Assembly (NCBI GenBank): GCA_017436575.1
Contig: JAFSCU010000007.1
Span: 39,143-103,142, forward strand
Direction: 5' to 3'
DNA length: 64,000 nucleotides
From: Oscillospiraceae bacterium
GTDB lineage: Bacteria; Bacillota; Clostridia; Oscillospirales; Ruminococcaceae
Positions 5,426 to 50,947 of this stretch are shown here, piece after piece (position 1 is the first letter of the stretch; every line of letters starts with the position of its first letter). The notes under the pieces were generated by a model, which was given only the letters and a program-made list of their open reading frames with translations, was not told where the DNA came from and did no database searches. A program made the position numbers and the translations under genes.

Positions 5426-5660
5426 TGTCATCCTGAGCGCAGCGAAGGATCTTTGATGCAAAAAAAATATAAAAGCAAATAATTTTACGATTGTAATAGT
5501 GCAAAGATTCTTCGGGCATGGCCCTCAGAATGACAGGACTTTAGTATGTGGGTGTATAACGGGACGTCCGGGAGGCCGTCCCCTACGGACACTGAAAATA
5601 TAAACAACGTAGGGGAGAGGTTCCCCCTCCCGACAAACAGGCTGATGGGGAATCATCCCT
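5426..5660. repeat. MITE type A followed by REP pair
   Basis: MITE 5426-5535; inverted REP of the GGACGTCC class at 5560-5587; REP of the GGTTCC class (GTAGGGGAGAGG) at 5609-5632; palindrome GGCTGATG/CATCCC at 5640-5659. Fills most of the 345-bp gap before the DUF362 gene terminator. Confidence 0.8.
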
Positions 5661-10076: not shown

Positions 10077-10907
10077 ATGAAAAAACTGCTTTGTATTTTA
10101 TTTACTGTTTTATTTGTTACTGCCTGTGGAAAAGAGGCCCCTGCGCAGTACAGCTATTACGAAAACTTTGTGCCATCGCCACTGGGGGAAAAAATAAGTG
10201 CCGTGGAAACAGGGGAATACAATGATATAACTGAAAGCGGCAGCACCGCTGTGCTGAAAGAAAAGCTGGGACTGGAAAATCTGACTGACCACAGTGTGTT
10301 CACCGCAAAATCATCTGCAGTGGTAAACTTTTATTTTGACCGGTATACCGACCACAGCCAGATGGAAAAAGCAATGGAATACGGATATGAAACTTTCTGG
10401 GTGGGTAAAATGCACACTGCTGACCTGCTGCCTTATGAAGACTGGCAGTACAGCCACAGGATAAAACAGCTGACTGTACAGATTTTCTGCGAAAATGTGG
10501 CGGTTTATCAGGAGATATACAGTTTTGACAAACTGACTGACAGCGGCGAAAAACTGTATGAAAAAACAGCGTTAACAGACAATGATGTGCTGATACCCGG
10601 AACATATATTTATCTGGGTGACTGGCTGAAAGGCAGCCAGGAACAGCTGGACCGGTATGTAAACATAGACAGCCTGGCAGATATGACAGTGCACACGTCA
10701 TTGCGCCAGACAGCCGACAAAAACAGGCTGATTGTGGAACTGCTGACAGAAGAAAGGCAGATTGCCCCGGAAAAACTGAACGGTATATATGATGCTGTGG
10801 TGGAAAGATACAGTTTTATAAACGAAAACATACTTATCAGGCTGTATGTAGCCGATGTGGGTATGTATTTTGAATATAACGGACATGTACCGCTGCCACA
10901 GCAGTGA
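10077..10907 (+). CDS. lipoprotein, unknown function
   Basis: 276-residue predicted lipoprotein: N-terminal KK, hydrophobic core, then lipobox VTAC with Cys17 as lipidation site, so extracytoplasmic and membrane-anchored. The rest is mixed alpha/beta without a recognised domain. Start supported by GGGGAG. Divergent from the XRE/DUF3169 pair and shares the palindrome-bearing intergenic region, so possibly under the same repressor. Ends in a terminator. Confidence 0.7.
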   Translation: MKKLLCILFTVLFVTACGKEAPAQYSYYENFVPSPLGEKISAVETGEYNDITESGSTAVLKEKLGLENLTDHSVFTAKSSAVVNFYFDRYTDHSQMEKAMEYGYETFWVGKMHTADLLPYEDWQYSHRIKQLTVQIFCENVAVYQEIYSFDKLTDSGEKLYEKTALTDNDVLIPGTYIYLGDWLKGSQEQLDRYVNIDSLADMTVHTSLRQTADKNRLIVELLTEERQIAPEKLNGIYDAVVERYSFINENILIRLYVADVGMYFEYNGHVPLPQQ

Positions 10908-19085: not shown

Positions 19086-19371
19086 TGCAATCCTGAACGT
19101 AGTGAAGGAACTTTGATACAGTAAAAATATCAAAATAATCAATTTTACAATTGTTATAGTGCAAAGATTCTTCGGTCAAAGCCCTCAGAATGACAGTGTG
19201 GCAGTCTTTAAGTATAAAAACGGGACGTCCGGGAGGCCGTCCCCTACGCAAATTAAGCTGTTGATTTTGCATACTGCGCAGGGGAAGATAATATCTTCCC
19301 GTTTTAACGGGCTGATGTGGGCATCAGCCCCTACGCAAATAATAAAAGGGAGGCGAAACGCCTCCCCTACG
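19086..19371. repeat. degenerate MITE and four REP palindromes
   Basis: MITE 19086-19195 with a damaged left end; inverted REP of GGACGTCC class 19221-19248; palindrome GGGGAAGATA/TATCTTCCC 19278-19301; inverted REP of CTGATG class 19308-19335; inverted REP of GGCGAAACGCC class 19348-19371. Three different palindrome classes sit side by side. Confidence 0.8.
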
Positions 19372-21477: not shown

Positions 21478-21776
21478 CGGGCGGTCGAGGGCGCCGCCCC
21501 TACGTGATATGTAAAAACAAAACCGTAGGGTACGATGCCCACATCGTACCTGTGCGACAAACAAAGTCGGGTATTGTCATCCTGAGCGAACGTCAGTGAG
21601 CCGAAGGATCTTTGCACCGGTGCAGTGCAGAAATTGTAATTTTTATAATATTGGGAATGCAAGGATTCTTCCGGCATAGCCCTCAGAATGACAGAGCGGT
21701 AGTCTTTAATTATAAAAACGGGACGTCCGGGAGGCCGTCCCCTACGCGTTGCGGGCTTATGTGGGAATCAGCCCAT
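21478..21776. repeat. iREP-REP-MITE-iREP array
   Basis: Inverted REP 21478-21504, REP (GTAGGGTACGATGCCC) 21524-21550, linker TGTGCGACAAACAAAGTCGG, MITE type B 21575-21693 with a longer left arm (GAGCGAACGTCAGTGAGCC), inverted REP GGACGTCC class 21719-21746, and a REP remnant after it. The same linker recurs at 28000. Confidence 0.85.
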
Positions 21777-24210: not shown

Positions 24211-24499
24211 ATAGGGTACCATGTCCATATCGTACCTATATGACATGCAAAATCGGATATTGTCATCCTGAACGCTGTGAAGATTCTTTGCACCGGTACA
24301 GTGCAGAAATTATAATTTTTATAATGTTTTGAGTGTAAAGATTCTTCGGGCATAGCCATCAGAATGACAGGGTAGTGAACTGCGGGACGTCCAGAGGCCG
24401 CCCCCTACGGATTTTTCTGTATGCGGGACGTCCGGGAGGCCGTCCCCTACGGGGTTTTTGTTTATAAACAAACGGGCGGGGGTGGAACCCCGCCCCTAC
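24211..24499. repeat. REP, MITE and three inverted REPs
   Basis: REP (ATAGGGTACCATGTCC) 24211-24236; MITE type B 24261-24369; inverted REPs at 24383-24409 and 24424-24451 (both GGACGTCC class) and 24473-24499 (GGAACC class). No gene from 24129 to 24579. Confidence 0.85.
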
Positions 24500-27744: not shown

Positions 27745-28132
27745 AGGGAACGGGTGAAGAATCTCTGATTCAACGGAAATATAAAGATGATAGTTTTACA
27801 ATGACTTGAATTCAAAGATTCTTCGCCGAAGGCTCAGAATGACGGGGCAGTCAACTGCGGGACGTCCGGGAGGCCGTCCCCTACAGGATGCGGTAAGGAC
27901 ATAAAATAAAAATGAGATATAAAACGGGCGGTGGAGGGCGACCGCCTCTACGGGATATGTATAAATAAATTGTGTAAGGTACGATGTCCACATCGTACCT
28001 GTGCGACAAACAAAGTCGGATATTGTCATCCTGAACGCAGTGAAGGATCTTTGCACCGATACAATGCAGATATTATAGTTTTTATAATGTTTGGAGTTCA
28101 AGGATTCTTCGGGCAAAGCATTCAGAAAGACA
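27745..28132. repeat. REP/MITE array upstream of dnaA
   Basis: Worn MITE 27750-27844; inverted REP GGACGTCC class 27858-27884; inverted REP 27925-27951; REP (GTAAGGTACGATGTCC) 27974-27999; MITE type B 28024-28132 with a damaged right end (TCAGAAAGACA). The array stops just before the AT-rich origin block. Confidence 0.8.
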
Positions 28133-35839: not shown

Positions 35840-36253
35840 TGTCATTCCGAACACCGCAGGTGGAGGAATCTTTGACGGCTTGCCGTCAATAAATCAGGAG
35901 AAATGTATGTATTATGTCTATATAATGTCCAATTGGAATAATAAAGTAGTTTATATAGGTTTTACAAATAATCTTGAAAGAAGAGTTTACGAGCATAAAA
36001 ACAAATTGATAGATGGATTTACAAAAAAATATAATGTAAATAAATTGGTATATTTTGAACAGACAAGTGATGTAAGAGTGTCTTTGGAAAGAGAAAAGCA
36101 GATAAAAAAATTCCGAAGGGAAAAGAAAAATATGCTTATTGAAAGTATAAATCCTGACTGGCGAGATTTGTCACTTGACTGGTATAACTAATTTTCAGCA
36201 ACAGAATTGCCAGCAGAGCTGGCAAAGATTCCTCACATACGTTCGGAATGACA
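35840..36253. mobile_element. MITE-ended element carrying a GIY-YIG gene
   Basis: 414 bp. Left end TGTCATTCCGAAC and right end GTTCGGAATGACA are a perfect 13-bp inverted repeat. Inside them a second inverted pair GAGGAATCTTTG / CAAAGATTCCTC. Each end then has a short hairpin: GACGGC-TT-GCCGTC on the left, TGCCAGC-AGA-GCTGGCA on the right. The only gene inside is a GIY-YIG nuclease. End layout is the same as in the 110-bp MITEs of this window. Confidence 0.75.
35907..36191 (+). CDS. GIY-YIG nuclease family protein (UPF0213 type)
   Basis: 94-residue single-domain GIY-YIG nuclease. Seen: YYVYIM and VVYIGFT (the GIY and YIG strands), ERRVYEHK with the catalytic Arg, and LEREKQIKKFRREKK with the metal-binding Glu; C-terminus NPDWRDLSLDW is typical of YhbQ/UPF0213 proteins. 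ATG at 35907 is chosen because AGGAG is correctly spaced. The gene is enclosed by MITE-type ends, so it may act on those ends; that role is inference. Confidence 0.85.
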   Translation: MYYVYIMSNWNNKVVYIGFTNNLERRVYEHKNKLIDGFTKKYNVNKLVYFEQTSDVRVSLEREKQIKKFRREKKNMLIESINPDWRDLSLDWYN

Positions 36254-38866: not shown

Positions 38867-38926
38867 CGTAGGGGGCGGCGTCCTCGACGCCCCGCAAAAC
38901 GGGATGTCCAGGAGGCCATCCCCTAC
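38867..38926. repeat. REP/inverted REP pair behind gyrA
   Basis: REP GTAGGGGGCGGCGTCC class at 38867-38895 and inverted REP (GGATGTCC, one transition from the GGACGTCC class) at 38900-38926, head to head with a 4-bp gap, so the two could form a cruciform or act as a gyrA terminator. Confidence 0.8.
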
Positions 38927-38965: not shown

Positions 38966-39205
38966 ATGATTTACTACTTTTACAGTATTCAGAAAGGTCT
39001 GATTGGGCTGGTAAATTACAGACTGGTTCAGAACAGGCTGAAAACTGATAAAAAACAGCTGATTGAACAGCTGAAAAAACAGGGGGAAACCCAGGGCTAT
39101 ATTTATGCCTGCAGACAAAAAGAAGGAATTTTTTTCAATAATGCCTATAAGACACCGCATCCGGTAGAGATAATAGGCTGTGAAAAACTGGAGGACCTGA
39201 TATGA
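38966..39205 (+). CDS. small protein, unknown, coupled to HIT gene
   Basis: 79 residues; hydrophilic, with a helical middle (NRLKTDKKQLIEQLKKQGE). No family recognised. Its stop overlaps the ATG of the HIT gene (ATGA), which argues for a real coding sequence. No strong ribosome binding site seen upstream. Confidence 0.5.
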   Translation: MIYYFYSIQKGLIGLVNYRLVQNRLKTDKKQLIEQLKKQGETQGYIYACRQKEGIFFNNAYKTPHPVEIIGCEKLEDLI

Positions 39206-39657
39206 GTGAATGTATGGTTTGTGAAAGGATAGAACTGACAAAGGCGGGCAAAAACCCGTATTTTGTCCGTGAGCTGGAAACAGGGTATGTGGTTATAGGC
39301 GATTACCAGAGATTTTACGGTTACACTGTTTTTATATGCAAACAGCACGCCAGCGAACTGTTCCAGCTGGAAAATGATTTTAAATTGAAGTATCTGGAAG
39401 AGATGAGCTTGGTGGCTGAATGTGTGTACAAGGCATTCCCTTGTGATAAAATCCATTATGAACTGCTGGGGGTGGGTAGTGGTGTGCACATGCATTGGCA
39501 TATTTTCCCACGCCGTGAAGGTGACAGCCCTGTAAAAGGCCCGGTGTGGAAGATACCAAAAGAAGAAATGTACAGTGAAAAATATAAACCGACACCACAA
39601 CAGCTGGCAGAAATGAAAGATATTCTGGCCAAAGAGTTGGATAAAGTTTTCGGATAA
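39202..39657 (+). CDS. HIT-family nucleotide-binding protein
   Basis: 151 residues. Histidine triad GVHMHWHIFPR near residue 95 with catalytic His; N-terminal CMVCERI zinc-type pair. HIT enzymes hydrolyse nucleoside phosphoramidates or dinucleoside polyphosphates. The RAYT gene starts 1 bp after its stop. Confidence 0.85.
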   Translation: MSECMVCERIELTKAGKNPYFVRELETGYVVIGDYQRFYGYTVFICKQHASELFQLENDFKLKYLEEMSLVAECVYKAFPCDKIHYELLGVGSGVHMHWHIFPRREGDSPVKGPVWKIPKEEMYSEKYKPTPQQLAEMKDILAKELDKVFG

Positions 39658-39658
39658 A

Positions 39659-40147
39659 ATGGAATTTAAAAGAAGGAAGCAGTTAAGATTAAATAATTAC
39701 GATTATAGTAATAACGGTGCATATTTTATCACAGTATGTACACAGGGAAGGCGTAATATATTAAGCAGAATAATTGTAGGGGAGGGGTTCCACCCCCTCC
39801 TTATAGTTGAATTAACTAAAATTGGAATAGAAATTGAAAATACAATAAATTTTATTAATGACAACTACCGCAATGTTTTTATTGAAAAATACGTGATAAT
39901 TCCTAACCATATTCATTTGATTTTGTATTTAGGTTATGAAAATTTGGGCGGGCATGGAAACCCGCCCCTACAAAAAATCGTGGGTCAACTTAAATCTTTT
40001 ACAACAAAGAAATATGGAAAAATATTATGGCAGCGTTCTTACTACGATCATATAATCAGAAATGATATGGAATATGCTGAAATATGGAGTTATATAGATT
40101 CAAACCCATCTAAATGGCTTGAAGATGAGTATTTTACTGAAGGTTAA
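39659..40147 (+). CDS. REP-associated tyrosine transposase 1 (RAYT)
   Basis: 162-residue Y1 transposase of the IS200-like/REP-associated group. N-terminal GAYFITVCTQ, metal-binding HUH-type motif NHIHLIL at about 83-89, and C-terminal WQRSYYDHIIR with the candidate nucleophile Tyr. REP sequences form part of the gene: GTAGGGG...CCCCCTCC encodes VGEGFHPLL and an inverted REP encodes GGHGNPPLQ. The start follows the HIT stop by 1 bp with no ribosome binding site, so translation probably depends on reinitiation. DUF3267 starts 3 bp after its stop, so the RAYT sits seamlessly in an operon. Confidence 0.88.
   Translation: MEFKRRKQLRLNNYDYSNNGAYFITVCTQGRRNILSRIIVGEGFHPLLIVELTKIGIEIENTINFINDNYRNVFIEKYVIIPNHIHLILYLGYENLGGHGNPPLQKIVGQLKSFTTKKYGKILWQRSYYDHIIRNDMEYAEIWSYIDSNPSKWLEDEYFTEG
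39776..39971. repeat. embedded REP pair in RAYT 1 (GGTTCC class)
   Basis: REP at 39776-39800 (GTAGGGGAGGGGTTCC...) and inverted REP at 39946-39971 (...CCCGCCCCTAC), both in frame. They share the GGTTCC/GGAA(A)CC centre but differ in the stems. Matching intergenic copies lie at 5609, 24473 and 45177. Confidence 0.85.
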
Positions 40148-42592: not shown

Positions 42593-43105
42593 ATGGAAAA
42601 TAATAAAGTTCCTAAAAGAAAAGAAATCAGATTGAAAGAATATGATTACGGTGCAAATGGAGCATATTTTGTAACTGTTTGCACCAAAGATAAAAAGCAT
42701 TTATTAAGCACAATCCGCGTAGGGGACGGCCTCCCGGACGTCCCGCATATTGAGTTGACGGATAACGGAAGAACTGTTAAAGAACAGTTTGAAATAATGA
42801 ATGCTTTATATGAAGATATTAATGTTAATCATTATGTAATAATGCCAAATCATATTCATTTCATTGTAGAAATAACAAAGCGTAACGGGACGTCCGGGAG
42901 GCCGTCCCCTACGCGAAGCAATGCCATAATTCCAAAGTATATATCCACATTCAAACGATTTACAAACAGGAAAAGTGGAATTGATTTATGGCAACGTTCT
43001 TACTACGACCATATAATCCGCAGTGAAGCGGATTATAATGAAAAACGGAATTACATATCAGAAAACCCACAAAAATGGGCGGATGATGAGTATTATTCCA
43101 ATTGA
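42593..43105 (+). CDS. REP-associated tyrosine transposase 2 (RAYT)
   Basis: 170 residues. GAYFVTVCTK, NHIHFIV (HxH motif) and WQRSYYDHIIR as in the other RAYTs. Two in-frame REPs, at codons for VGDGLPDVP and NGTSGRPSPT, are exact reverse complements of each other over 28 bp. Start 9 bp after the mnmE stop, with no good ribosome binding site, so it depends on mnmE transcription. Otherwise intact, with no stop or shift. Confidence 0.88.
   Translation: MENNKVPKRKEIRLKEYDYGANGAYFVTVCTKDKKHLLSTIRVGDGLPDVPHIELTDNGRTVKEQFEIMNALYEDINVNHYVIMPNHIHFIVEITKRNGTSGRPSPTRSNAIIPKYISTFKRFTNRKSGIDLWQRSYYDHIIRSEADYNEKRNYISENPQKWADDEYYSN
42718..42913. repeat. embedded REP pair in RAYT 2 (GGACGTCC class)
   Basis: REP 42718-42745 (CGTAGGGGACGGCC...) and inverted REP 42886-42913 (...CGTCCCCTACG), a perfect 28-bp inverted repeat 140 bp apart, both in frame. 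The same class is the commonest intergenic REP of the window (5560, 19221, 21719, 22879, 24383, 24424, 27858). Confidence 0.9.
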
Positions 43106-50464: not shown

Positions 50465-50947
50465 ATGAATAGTATCAATTTTCCGAAAAGGAAAAAATTA
50501 AGATTGGATAATTATGACTATAAAAACAATGGCGCATATTTCATAACAATATGTACTGTTGGAAAAAGTCACATACTTGGAAAAATCGTAGGGGGCGATG
50601 CCTACATCGCCCCGCATATAGAATTATCAGAGTACGGTGTAACAGTAGAGAAATATATCAAAAATATGAAAGGTTTGGATACATACACTATAATGCCGAA
50701 CCACATACACATAATAATAAGAATAGGTTTTGATTCGGATGGGACGATGTGGGCATCGTCCCCTACGCGGGGGATTCCGCAACTGATAAAATCATTTAAA
50801 ATAATGGTTTCAAAGAAATGTGGAAAAACAATTTTCCAGCGTTCCTACTATGACCATATAATCCGAGATGAAGCTGATTATCTTGAGAAGTATAATTACA
50901 TACGGACAAACCTTTTAAAGTGGTCAGAAGATGAATATTATATATAA
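50465..50947 (+). CDS. REP-associated tyrosine transposase 3 (RAYT)
   Basis: 160 residues. GAYFITICTV, NHIHIII, FQRSYYDHIIR. In-frame REP at codons for VGGDAYIAP and inverted REP for DGTMWASSPTR, at the same protein places as in the other two RAYTs but of a different class. The start overlaps the soj stop region (2-bp gap), with no ribosome binding site. The gene splits the soj-spo0J pair. Intact reading frame. Confidence 0.88.
   Translation: MNSINFPKRKKLRLDNYDYKNNGAYFITICTVGKSHILGKIVGGDAYIAPHIELSEYGVTVEKYIKNMKGLDTYTIMPNHIHIIIRIGFDSDGTMWASSPTRGIPQLIKSFKIMVSKKCGKTIFQRSYYDHIIRDEADYLEKYNYIRTNLLKWSEDEYYI
50587..50769. repeat. embedded REP pair in RAYT 3 (CGATGCC class)
   Basis: REP 50587-50615 (CGTAGGGGGCGATGCC...) and inverted REP 50741-50769 (...GGGCATCGTCCCCTACG). 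Both share the CGATG(C/T)CC-ACATCG core found in intergenic REPs at 2463, 11169, 21524, 24211 and 27974. Confidence 0.88.

Follow-up and report, generated by a model that had tools for sequence, protein, structure and literature searches.

Inverted, co-varying REP hairpins inside the reading frames of RAYT genes from Clostridia

The question of how RAYTs and their REPs remain matched in specificity and sequence becomes concrete where a RAYT gene holds REPs in its own reading frame: does such a gene carry the substrate of the enzyme that it encodes? The gene considered here, RAYT B, lies in a 64,000-nucleotide stretch of DNA from an Oscillospiraceae bacterium, which we call the window (Table 1). 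A preliminary description of this DNA had reported, within the transposase ORF, a REP and its inverse as exact reverse complements over 28 bp. The ORF and both segments are present and the complementarity is exact, but it extends over 30 bp, with arms 140 bp apart. Both copies are translated in frame, as VGDGLPDVP and NGTSGRPSPT, and they stand on either side of the HxH codons, as had been stated. The 27-mer GTAGGGGACGGCCTCCCGGACGTCCCG has seven exact copies in the window, two in RAYT B and five elsewhere, all five on the minus strand, and one further copy with 3 mismatches; 100 shuffles gave none. No other REP was seen in the window in five exact copies, which fits the earlier designation of this one as the commonest intergenic REP. 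In the whole 2.1-Mb assembly, the RAYT B 26-mer has seven exact copies, all in contig C1, and the five dispersed ones lie on a single strand within ~37 kb of the gene.

Table 1. RAYT genes, their embedded REPs and dispersed copies of the RAYT B REP, in window positions.
Feature	Position	Strand	Remark
RAYT A	39659..40147	+	start 1 bp past the stop of gene 39202-39657
RAYT A loop-1 REP	39776..39800	+	
RAYT A loop-2 REP	39946..39971	-	unlike its own loop-1 REP in stem and loop
RAYT B	42593..43105	+	170-aa HUH/Y1 tyrosine transposase-like ORF; start 9 bp past the mnmE stop
RAYT B loop-1 REP	42716..42745	+	inverted repeat, left arm; hairpin with its GTAG foot at 42719
NHIH (HUH) codons of RAYT B	42848..42859	+	between both REPs; H87 and H89 invariant
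RAYT B loop-2 REP	42886..42915	-	inverted repeat, right arm; outward-facing GTAG foot on the minus strand
R122 codon of RAYT B	42956..42958	+	counterpart of K82 in E. coli TnpAREP by alignment; strongest association with REP type among core columns
Y154 codon of RAYT B	43052..43054	+	catalytic tyrosine by position; invariant
RAYT C	50465..50947	+	start 2 bp past the stop of the parA-like gene
RAYT C loop-1 REP	50588..50613	+	
RAYT C loop-2 REP	50741..50766	-	one compensated pair different from loop 1
Dispersed exact copy of RAYT B REP	5560..5586	-	
Dispersed exact copy of RAYT B REP	19221..19247	-	
Dispersed exact copy of RAYT B REP	21719..21745	-	
Dispersed exact copy of RAYT B REP	24424..24450	-	
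Dispersed exact copy of RAYT B REP	27858..27884	-	

The RAYT B protein scores 67.4 bits (E=1.2e-18) against the NCBIfam model REP_Tyr_transpos (NF047646), whose cut-off is 80 bits, and 15.8 against Pfam Y1_Tnp, whose cut-off is 23; the profile of our alignment A1 matches E. coli TnpAREP (4er8) with E=6.9e-11. H87, H89 and Y154, which represent the HUH motif and a single downstream tyrosine, are invariant in alignments of 15 and 56 sequences. The GTAG-recognition motif WQ....(D/E)H..R is present and aligned to E. coli W94-R104, with Q134, H140 and R143 invariant and D139 nearly so. As for the motifs of subclass 2.4, NHIH and WQ are found, and the tyrosine motif reads YISENP, not YIxNNP; the in-frame REPs of that subclass, in a variable insert between beta3 and alphaC, have their counterpart in RAYT B. 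REPINs have a short spacer between their two REPs; RAYT B shares with them the inverted pair with outward GTAG, but its spacer consists of 140 bp of coding DNA. Apart from the three RAYTs, a protein search of the same genome listed only an antisense match within RAYT B, and cognate GTAG hairpin REPs are dispersed in this genome. The proposal of a RAYT-like gene whose two segments are genuine REPs, of a kind also found dispersed in the genome, is supported by these comparisons.

RAYTs A and C carry REP pairs of their own at the same two places and in the same orientation as RAYT B, with different sequences. These pairs had been overlooked, and while the preliminary interpretation holds as to RAYT identity, true REPs, bracketing of the HUH motif and palindromy, the feature is not unique to RAYT B. 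The window also holds gyrB, gyrA, mnmE, mnmG, a parA-like and a parB-family gene, an arrangement that we take to be typical of a replication-origin region. Between 33235 and 51975, RAYTs A, B and C directly follow the stop codons of conserved genes (by 1, 9 and 2 bp), and the same slots hold RAYTs of other REP types in related genomes, or a C-terminal remnant in G011. Such slots between conserved genes, filled in related genomes by RAYTs that differ in REP type and have shared ends, suggest cassette exchange. A small ORF at 35880-36191, which by eye presumably resembles a GIY-YIG nuclease, lies between inverted GTCATTCCGA-type repeats in a slot where G011 and G012 have a RAYT.

We surveyed relatives at several distances. 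At genus level, protein searching gave matches in 9 of 16 genomes, and 16 ORFs were compared, leaving out a duplicate, a broken gene and fragments. A GTAGGGG foot occurs on the plus strand in loop 1 and on the minus strand in loop 2 of all 16, and the strict hairpin test finds both REPs in 15 of them. From the family (148 genomes searched, 16 with matches), 11 ORFs were taken, and a named scan contributed 81 ORFs from the best 80 of 486 confirmed loci. The resulting 108-set comprises distinct complete ORFs; a locus contributed if it had an ORF of at least 100 aa with a match at E 1e-10, each distinct protein was entered a single time, and six partial ORFs were excluded. Nearly all are from Clostridia; L078 belongs to a Synergistaceae record and L103 to a Leptolinea record. 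With the named part restricted to the best 80 of 486 loci, a hairpin REP stands in loop 1 on the plus strand in 82/108 and in loop 2 on the minus strand in 94/108; both are present in 80, one in 16 and none in 12. Only one REP in loop 1, and none in loop 2, has the wrong orientation, and the bare GTAGGG foot occurs in loop 1 of 86 and loop 2 of 95 ORFs. By source, both REPs are found in 15/16 genus ORFs, 3/11 family ORFs and 62/81 ORFs from the named loci (best 80 of 486), and the pair is therefore less regular in the wider family sample, of which three members (L043, L049 and L051) have a different pair, consisting of the loop-2 (-) REP and a later (+) copy. Relatives that have no REPs display unrelated loops.

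Beyond this group, the same detector that finds an inside REP in 95/108 found none in 28 control RAYT/Y1 ORFs of the phylum, taken from the 30 best loci (2 gave no usable ORF); the control loci hold one REP anywhere. Among 251 Chloroflexota genomes, 90 gave matches, and none of the 29 complete genes examined from the best loci has the loop-1 (+)/loop-2 (-) pair; our tally files one of these, L207, in another group. Seven have a double-foot palindrome in loop 2, counted by the detector once per strand, four have REPs on the minus strand only, one of which (L244) near both loop positions, and 18 have no internal REP, 11 of these with REPs within 700 bp of the gene. Internal REPs are likewise absent from the Leptolinea and Spirosoma plasmid RAYTs examined. 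Some loops hold more than one REP: three in a row in loop 2 of L054, two in loop 2 of L079 and two in loop 1 of L101, where L124 has a tandem peptide repeat in place of a REP. A gut contig filed as phage (MT839559.1, 109-591; L195) contains a RAYT-like match with two identical inverted REPs.

The preliminary description had set against its own reading the prospect of palindrome-free homologues in which the two segments are ordinary conserved residues. Most homologues examined have palindromes at these positions, in many different sequences, and the palindromy exceeds by far what the protein requires. When codons were redrawn with the peptide kept, the expected mean stems were about 1.8 and 1.5, compared with 7.15 and 7.14 observed, and the longest word common to the two REPs fell from 17.7 to 6.2; the comparison is conditional, as the 80 genes used had been selected for having hairpins. 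Among 32 stem differences between the two REPs of one gene, 27 have their compensation inside the hairpin and 5 are of other kinds, as counted in 50 genes with two 26-mers, 13 of them identical, by a detection that demands a stem and thus biases toward compensation. Because these differences are mostly compensated within hairpins, each REP seems to be maintained as a REP rather than as one arm of an arm-to-arm duplex; an arm-to-arm mRNA duplex as the conserved entity is disfavoured by the same count. The hairpin covaries strongly on 28 chosen REPs, a result that stem-demanding detection favours. In many 26-nt REPs the stem retains a G-A or A-G (purine-purine) mismatch, at columns 11 and 20 of alignment A3, which recalls the bulge of E. 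coli REPs.

The two members of a pair also resemble each other far more than they resemble the REPs of other genes. Their mean similarity is 0.906 within and 0.557 between genes, the best of 10,000 permutations reaching 0.619, and in 25/80 genes the variable part is the same in both. Set beside the REP2 of the closest relative with core identity below 0.98, a gene's own REP2 fits its REP1 better in 35, equally in 34 and worse in 11 of the 80 genes. On 40 independent pairs, from a tree of the core that excludes the loops, change in REP1 follows change in REP2 with a Spearman coefficient of 0.86: both REPs have switched in 11 pairs, one only in 4 and neither in 25. REP1 change also tracks tree distance (0.73), so part of this correlation is shared age. 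Between L062 and L060 the same stem pair differs in both REPs, which amounts to four coordinated base changes. There are 61 loop-1 variants among the 80 pair genes. On the tree, the loop-1 REP is gained or lost 19 times and the loop-2 REP 10 times, and the genes concerned have complete ORFs, which argues that the protein does not need them.

Two cases give a view of REP history. On the tree (L007,(B,(L006,L005))), it is on the branch of RAYT B itself that its loop-1 REP took on the loop-2 type, in a REP-sized change; the perfect 30-bp repeat is thus the product of recent REP-sized homogenisation. L005, the RAYT of G011, acquired a loop-2 REP that differs from the one in its loop 1; a single exact copy of it lies dispersed in that genome, so that the donor was probably not its partner. 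Contig breaks at REPs create gene fragments, which are uninformative about segment movement.

Do the embedded REPs correspond to those elsewhere in the genome? In 444.6 kb sampled from the genome of RAYT B, we found 44 GTAGGG hairpins (6 inside the three RAYTs), compared with 1 in the reversed control. Genome-wide, 150 of 235 candidates were scored, with at least 71 matches to the REP model. Of the hairpins, 30 (6 embedded) fall in the 103-kb contig C1 with the RAYT cluster and 14 in 341 kb of the other sampled contigs, which were chosen because of their matches; REP density is much higher around the RAYT cluster. The dispersed REPs resemble their own embedded set at 0.792 and foreign sets at 0.679 (maximum 0.777), and 13/38 match no embedded type. 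In the complete genome of Chakrabartyella piscis (G478), the fetched stretches contain 11 RAYT places with 16 different REPs; 120 dispersed REPs resemble the own embedded set at 0.788 and foreign sets of equal size at 0.655 (maximum 0.702), with 49/120 matching no embedded type. This genome has 14 RAYT matches, fragments included, and two RAYT copies at 10681 and 40051, 29,370 bp apart and with identical REP layout, suggest a duplication. The fit is poor in G461, where among the matches listed 7/13 dispersed REPs are a T-A variant and 1 is the embedded G-C form. REP-model matches are more numerous in genomes of the genus with a RAYT (71, 6, 14, 45, 74, 14, 2, 49 and 63) than in those without (1, 8, 1, 0, 38, 0 and 0; p=0.008), where several genomes are incomplete and the counts are lower bounds, at most 150 candidates per genome having been scored. 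The genome with 38 matches, G013, has many that score equally and no RAYT by protein search. In G466, a composite element of about 270 bp with several REP types is repeated several times in the two fetched stretches (L183 and L184), and tblastn with the G466 RAYT found nothing at it in these stretches.

REPs flanking the genes also resemble the embedded ones, at 0.764 compared with 0.614 when permuted (maximum 0.693), with an exact match at 11/32 loci. Among the genes of the 108-set with 700 bp of flank (13 were dropped for short flanks), flanking REPs accompany 6/8 genes with no internal REP, 6/14 with one and 20/73 with the pair (none versus pair, Fisher p=0.012); adding the 18 Chloroflexota genes that have no internal REPs gives p=0.0009, at the price of mixing phyla. 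A bracket of (+) upstream and (-) downstream REPs within 700 bp surrounds just 2/73 pair genes with full flanks. The own-genome sample holds 12 further REPs in nine non-RAYT ORFs of at least 100 aa. Of eight that were checked, six have no Pfam match up to E 0.1, one has a Pfam match below cut-off (E=0.056), and in the one with a clear domain (HTH) the REP lies upstream of a likely later start. The idea that REPs are common inserts in any gene was set aside on these grounds.

Residue 122 may mark a link between REP type and the enzyme itself. With overall core identity removed, R122 is the core column best associated with REP similarity (r=0.52), followed by T119, Q65, T124, F123, N125 and S118, the 95% point of label permutation being 0.15. 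Counted along the alignment, R122 corresponds to K82 of E. coli TnpAREP, a residue of the alpha3 helix, which binds DNA; K82 is described as contacting C27, a bulged base in the REP stem (PMC8266576). The residue is R or K in 32/32 genes with interrupted-stem REPs and in 5/47 with plain stems, leaving out one mixed gene (L061); of the five, L010, L011 and L015 are real exceptions, and L113 and L085 seem by eye to be misparsed. A looser parse gives 33/33 and 4/46. A poorly supported tree shows 8 and 7 changes, and only one independent pair lies on supported branches. In the 40 independent pairs, R122 ranks after S136, S118 and R135, with p=0.022 before correction for 97 columns, and no column survives correction. 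The REP type goes with the kind of residue at 122 as a raw association, for which common descent is a serious confounder.

In most relatives examined, then, the pair stands in the same two loops; its members co-vary, its REP type turns over, and it matches dispersed REPs of the same genome. We consider it most likely, with a probability of roughly 0.5, that the gene keeps the substrate linked to the enzyme. The internalised pair would be a REPIN-like unit of two hairpins with GTAG feet outward, about 195 bp from end to end, stretched across the HUH half of the RAYT gene and accommodated in two protein loops. Both loops are probably exposed, judging from the alignment to 4er8 and a model described in PMC6006769. 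The enzyme would treat the embedded REPs like dispersed ones, and REP-sized exchange would re-copy REPs between the two loops and the dispersed population, so that the enzyme would stay physically linked to its own substrate and gene transfer or cassette exchange would move both. Since TnpAREP is described as processing the REP strand and not its inverse (PMC8266576), each of the gene's two strands would hold one substrate of the pair. Binding, cleavage and a benefit to the gene are what we infer from this arrangement. The broader proposition that a lineage of Clostridia RAYTs turned the REPtron outside-in, holding an inverted cognate REP pair inside the ORF in step with its specificity, and so became a self-contained enzyme-plus-substrate replicator and a written record of the recognition code, we put forward tentatively, at somewhat less than even odds.

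The strongest competitor, though a less probable one, holds that REPs were inserted once, early, into two loops that tolerate inserts, that they have no function, that in-frame loss is rare, and that the likeness of the two arises by template switching during replication between inverted repeats 140 bp apart or by conversion from dispersed copies. In print, the inserts of subclass 2.4 and the REPs of other genes have been read as lying in flexible loops, with little effect (PMC6006769, PMC3733652), and the frequent changes of presence and absence agree with it, as does the homogenisation on the RAYT B branch, which fits template switching. It accounts less well for the loop-2 REP of L005, probably not donated by its partner, for a REP type that tracks residue 122 (where descent confounds) and the dispersed types, and for flanking REPs being commoner in genes that have no internal ones.

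Autoregulation, in which the enzyme, RNase III or a ribosome meets the hairpins or the arm duplex in mRNA or in the single-stranded gene and expression is kept low, seems improbable to us. The arm duplex is predicted to be more stable than the two hairpins in 80/80 genes, and the positions of RAYTs A, B and C so close behind same-strand stops would make over-expression by readthrough possible. But such a duplex arises from any inverted REP pair, the arms diverge in most genes while the hairpins remain intact, as the compensation count above records, and PMC8266576 describes action on single-stranded DNA REPs, not iREPs. That the loop peptides are what matters and the palindromes a by-product is largely refuted, and we give it very little weight: V43, G44 and P106 are indeed invariant in the 15-sequence genus alignment, but the REP feet encode them, the remainder of each loop varies in sequence and length, synonymous recoding abolishes the palindromes, and the loops of REP-less relatives are unrelated.

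If the embedded REP is cognate, as the linked-substrate reading has it, this would be a mobile-DNA enzyme with its substrate in its own coding sequence, and the REP that an enzyme recognises may be readable from the gene itself. The 80 enzyme-REP pairs with their 61 loop-1 variants would then make a recognition code testable at scale, with position 122 (E. coli K82) as its first prediction; three enzyme-REP models underlie the 2021 study (PMC8266576).

The occurrence of REPs inside tnpAREP genes has been in print since 2018, when Quentin et al. described subclass 2.4 members with REPs read in frame, as a rule in the interval from HUH to Y (PMC6006769); Di Nocera et al. (2013) described REPs inside other genes (PMC3733652), and related literature includes Nunvar et al. 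(2010; PMC2817692) and the 2025 RepRanger paper (PMC12306157). New here is the paired, co-varying, internalised cognate REP pair, an arrangement for which our search of the open literature gave no report. The genes described here share with subclass 2.4 a short HUH/Y1 RAYT with NH[IFV]H and WQ and no C-terminal extension, and in-frame REPs that are long, with a GC-rich stem base and a GTAG foot (PMC6006769). They differ in that the inserts of that subclass are placed generally in loop 2, and the passages on them in the same paper describe no loop-1 partner, outward pairing, co-variation or a match to a specificity residue or to dispersed REPs.

Other known systems share single traits with RAYT B. 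In REPtrons, as here, inverted cognate REPs are linked to a RAYT gene, with one REP family per enzyme, but here the bracketing REPs lie within the ORF, around its HUH half. REPINs and BIMEs likewise consist of two inverted REPs with GTAG feet outward, as in the intergenic pair at 38868-38926 of the window; that pair has 5 bp between its 27-mers, whereas the spacer in RAYT B is 140 bp and coding. Intragenic GTAG REPs and Rickettsia palindromic elements are also translated in frame inside genes, though these are varied and unrelated genes according to PMC3733652, while the REPs described here occupy fixed sites in their cognate enzyme. E. coli TnpAREP (4er8) resembles RAYT B in its HUH motif, its catalytic tyrosine, the WQ....(D/E)H..R motif and the association of a basic residue at the K82 position with interrupted-stem REPs. 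It differs in a C-terminal extension of its own (PMC8266576) and a shorter loop 2, and its REPs are described as lying around the gene (PMC6006769), whereas those of RAYT B are within it.
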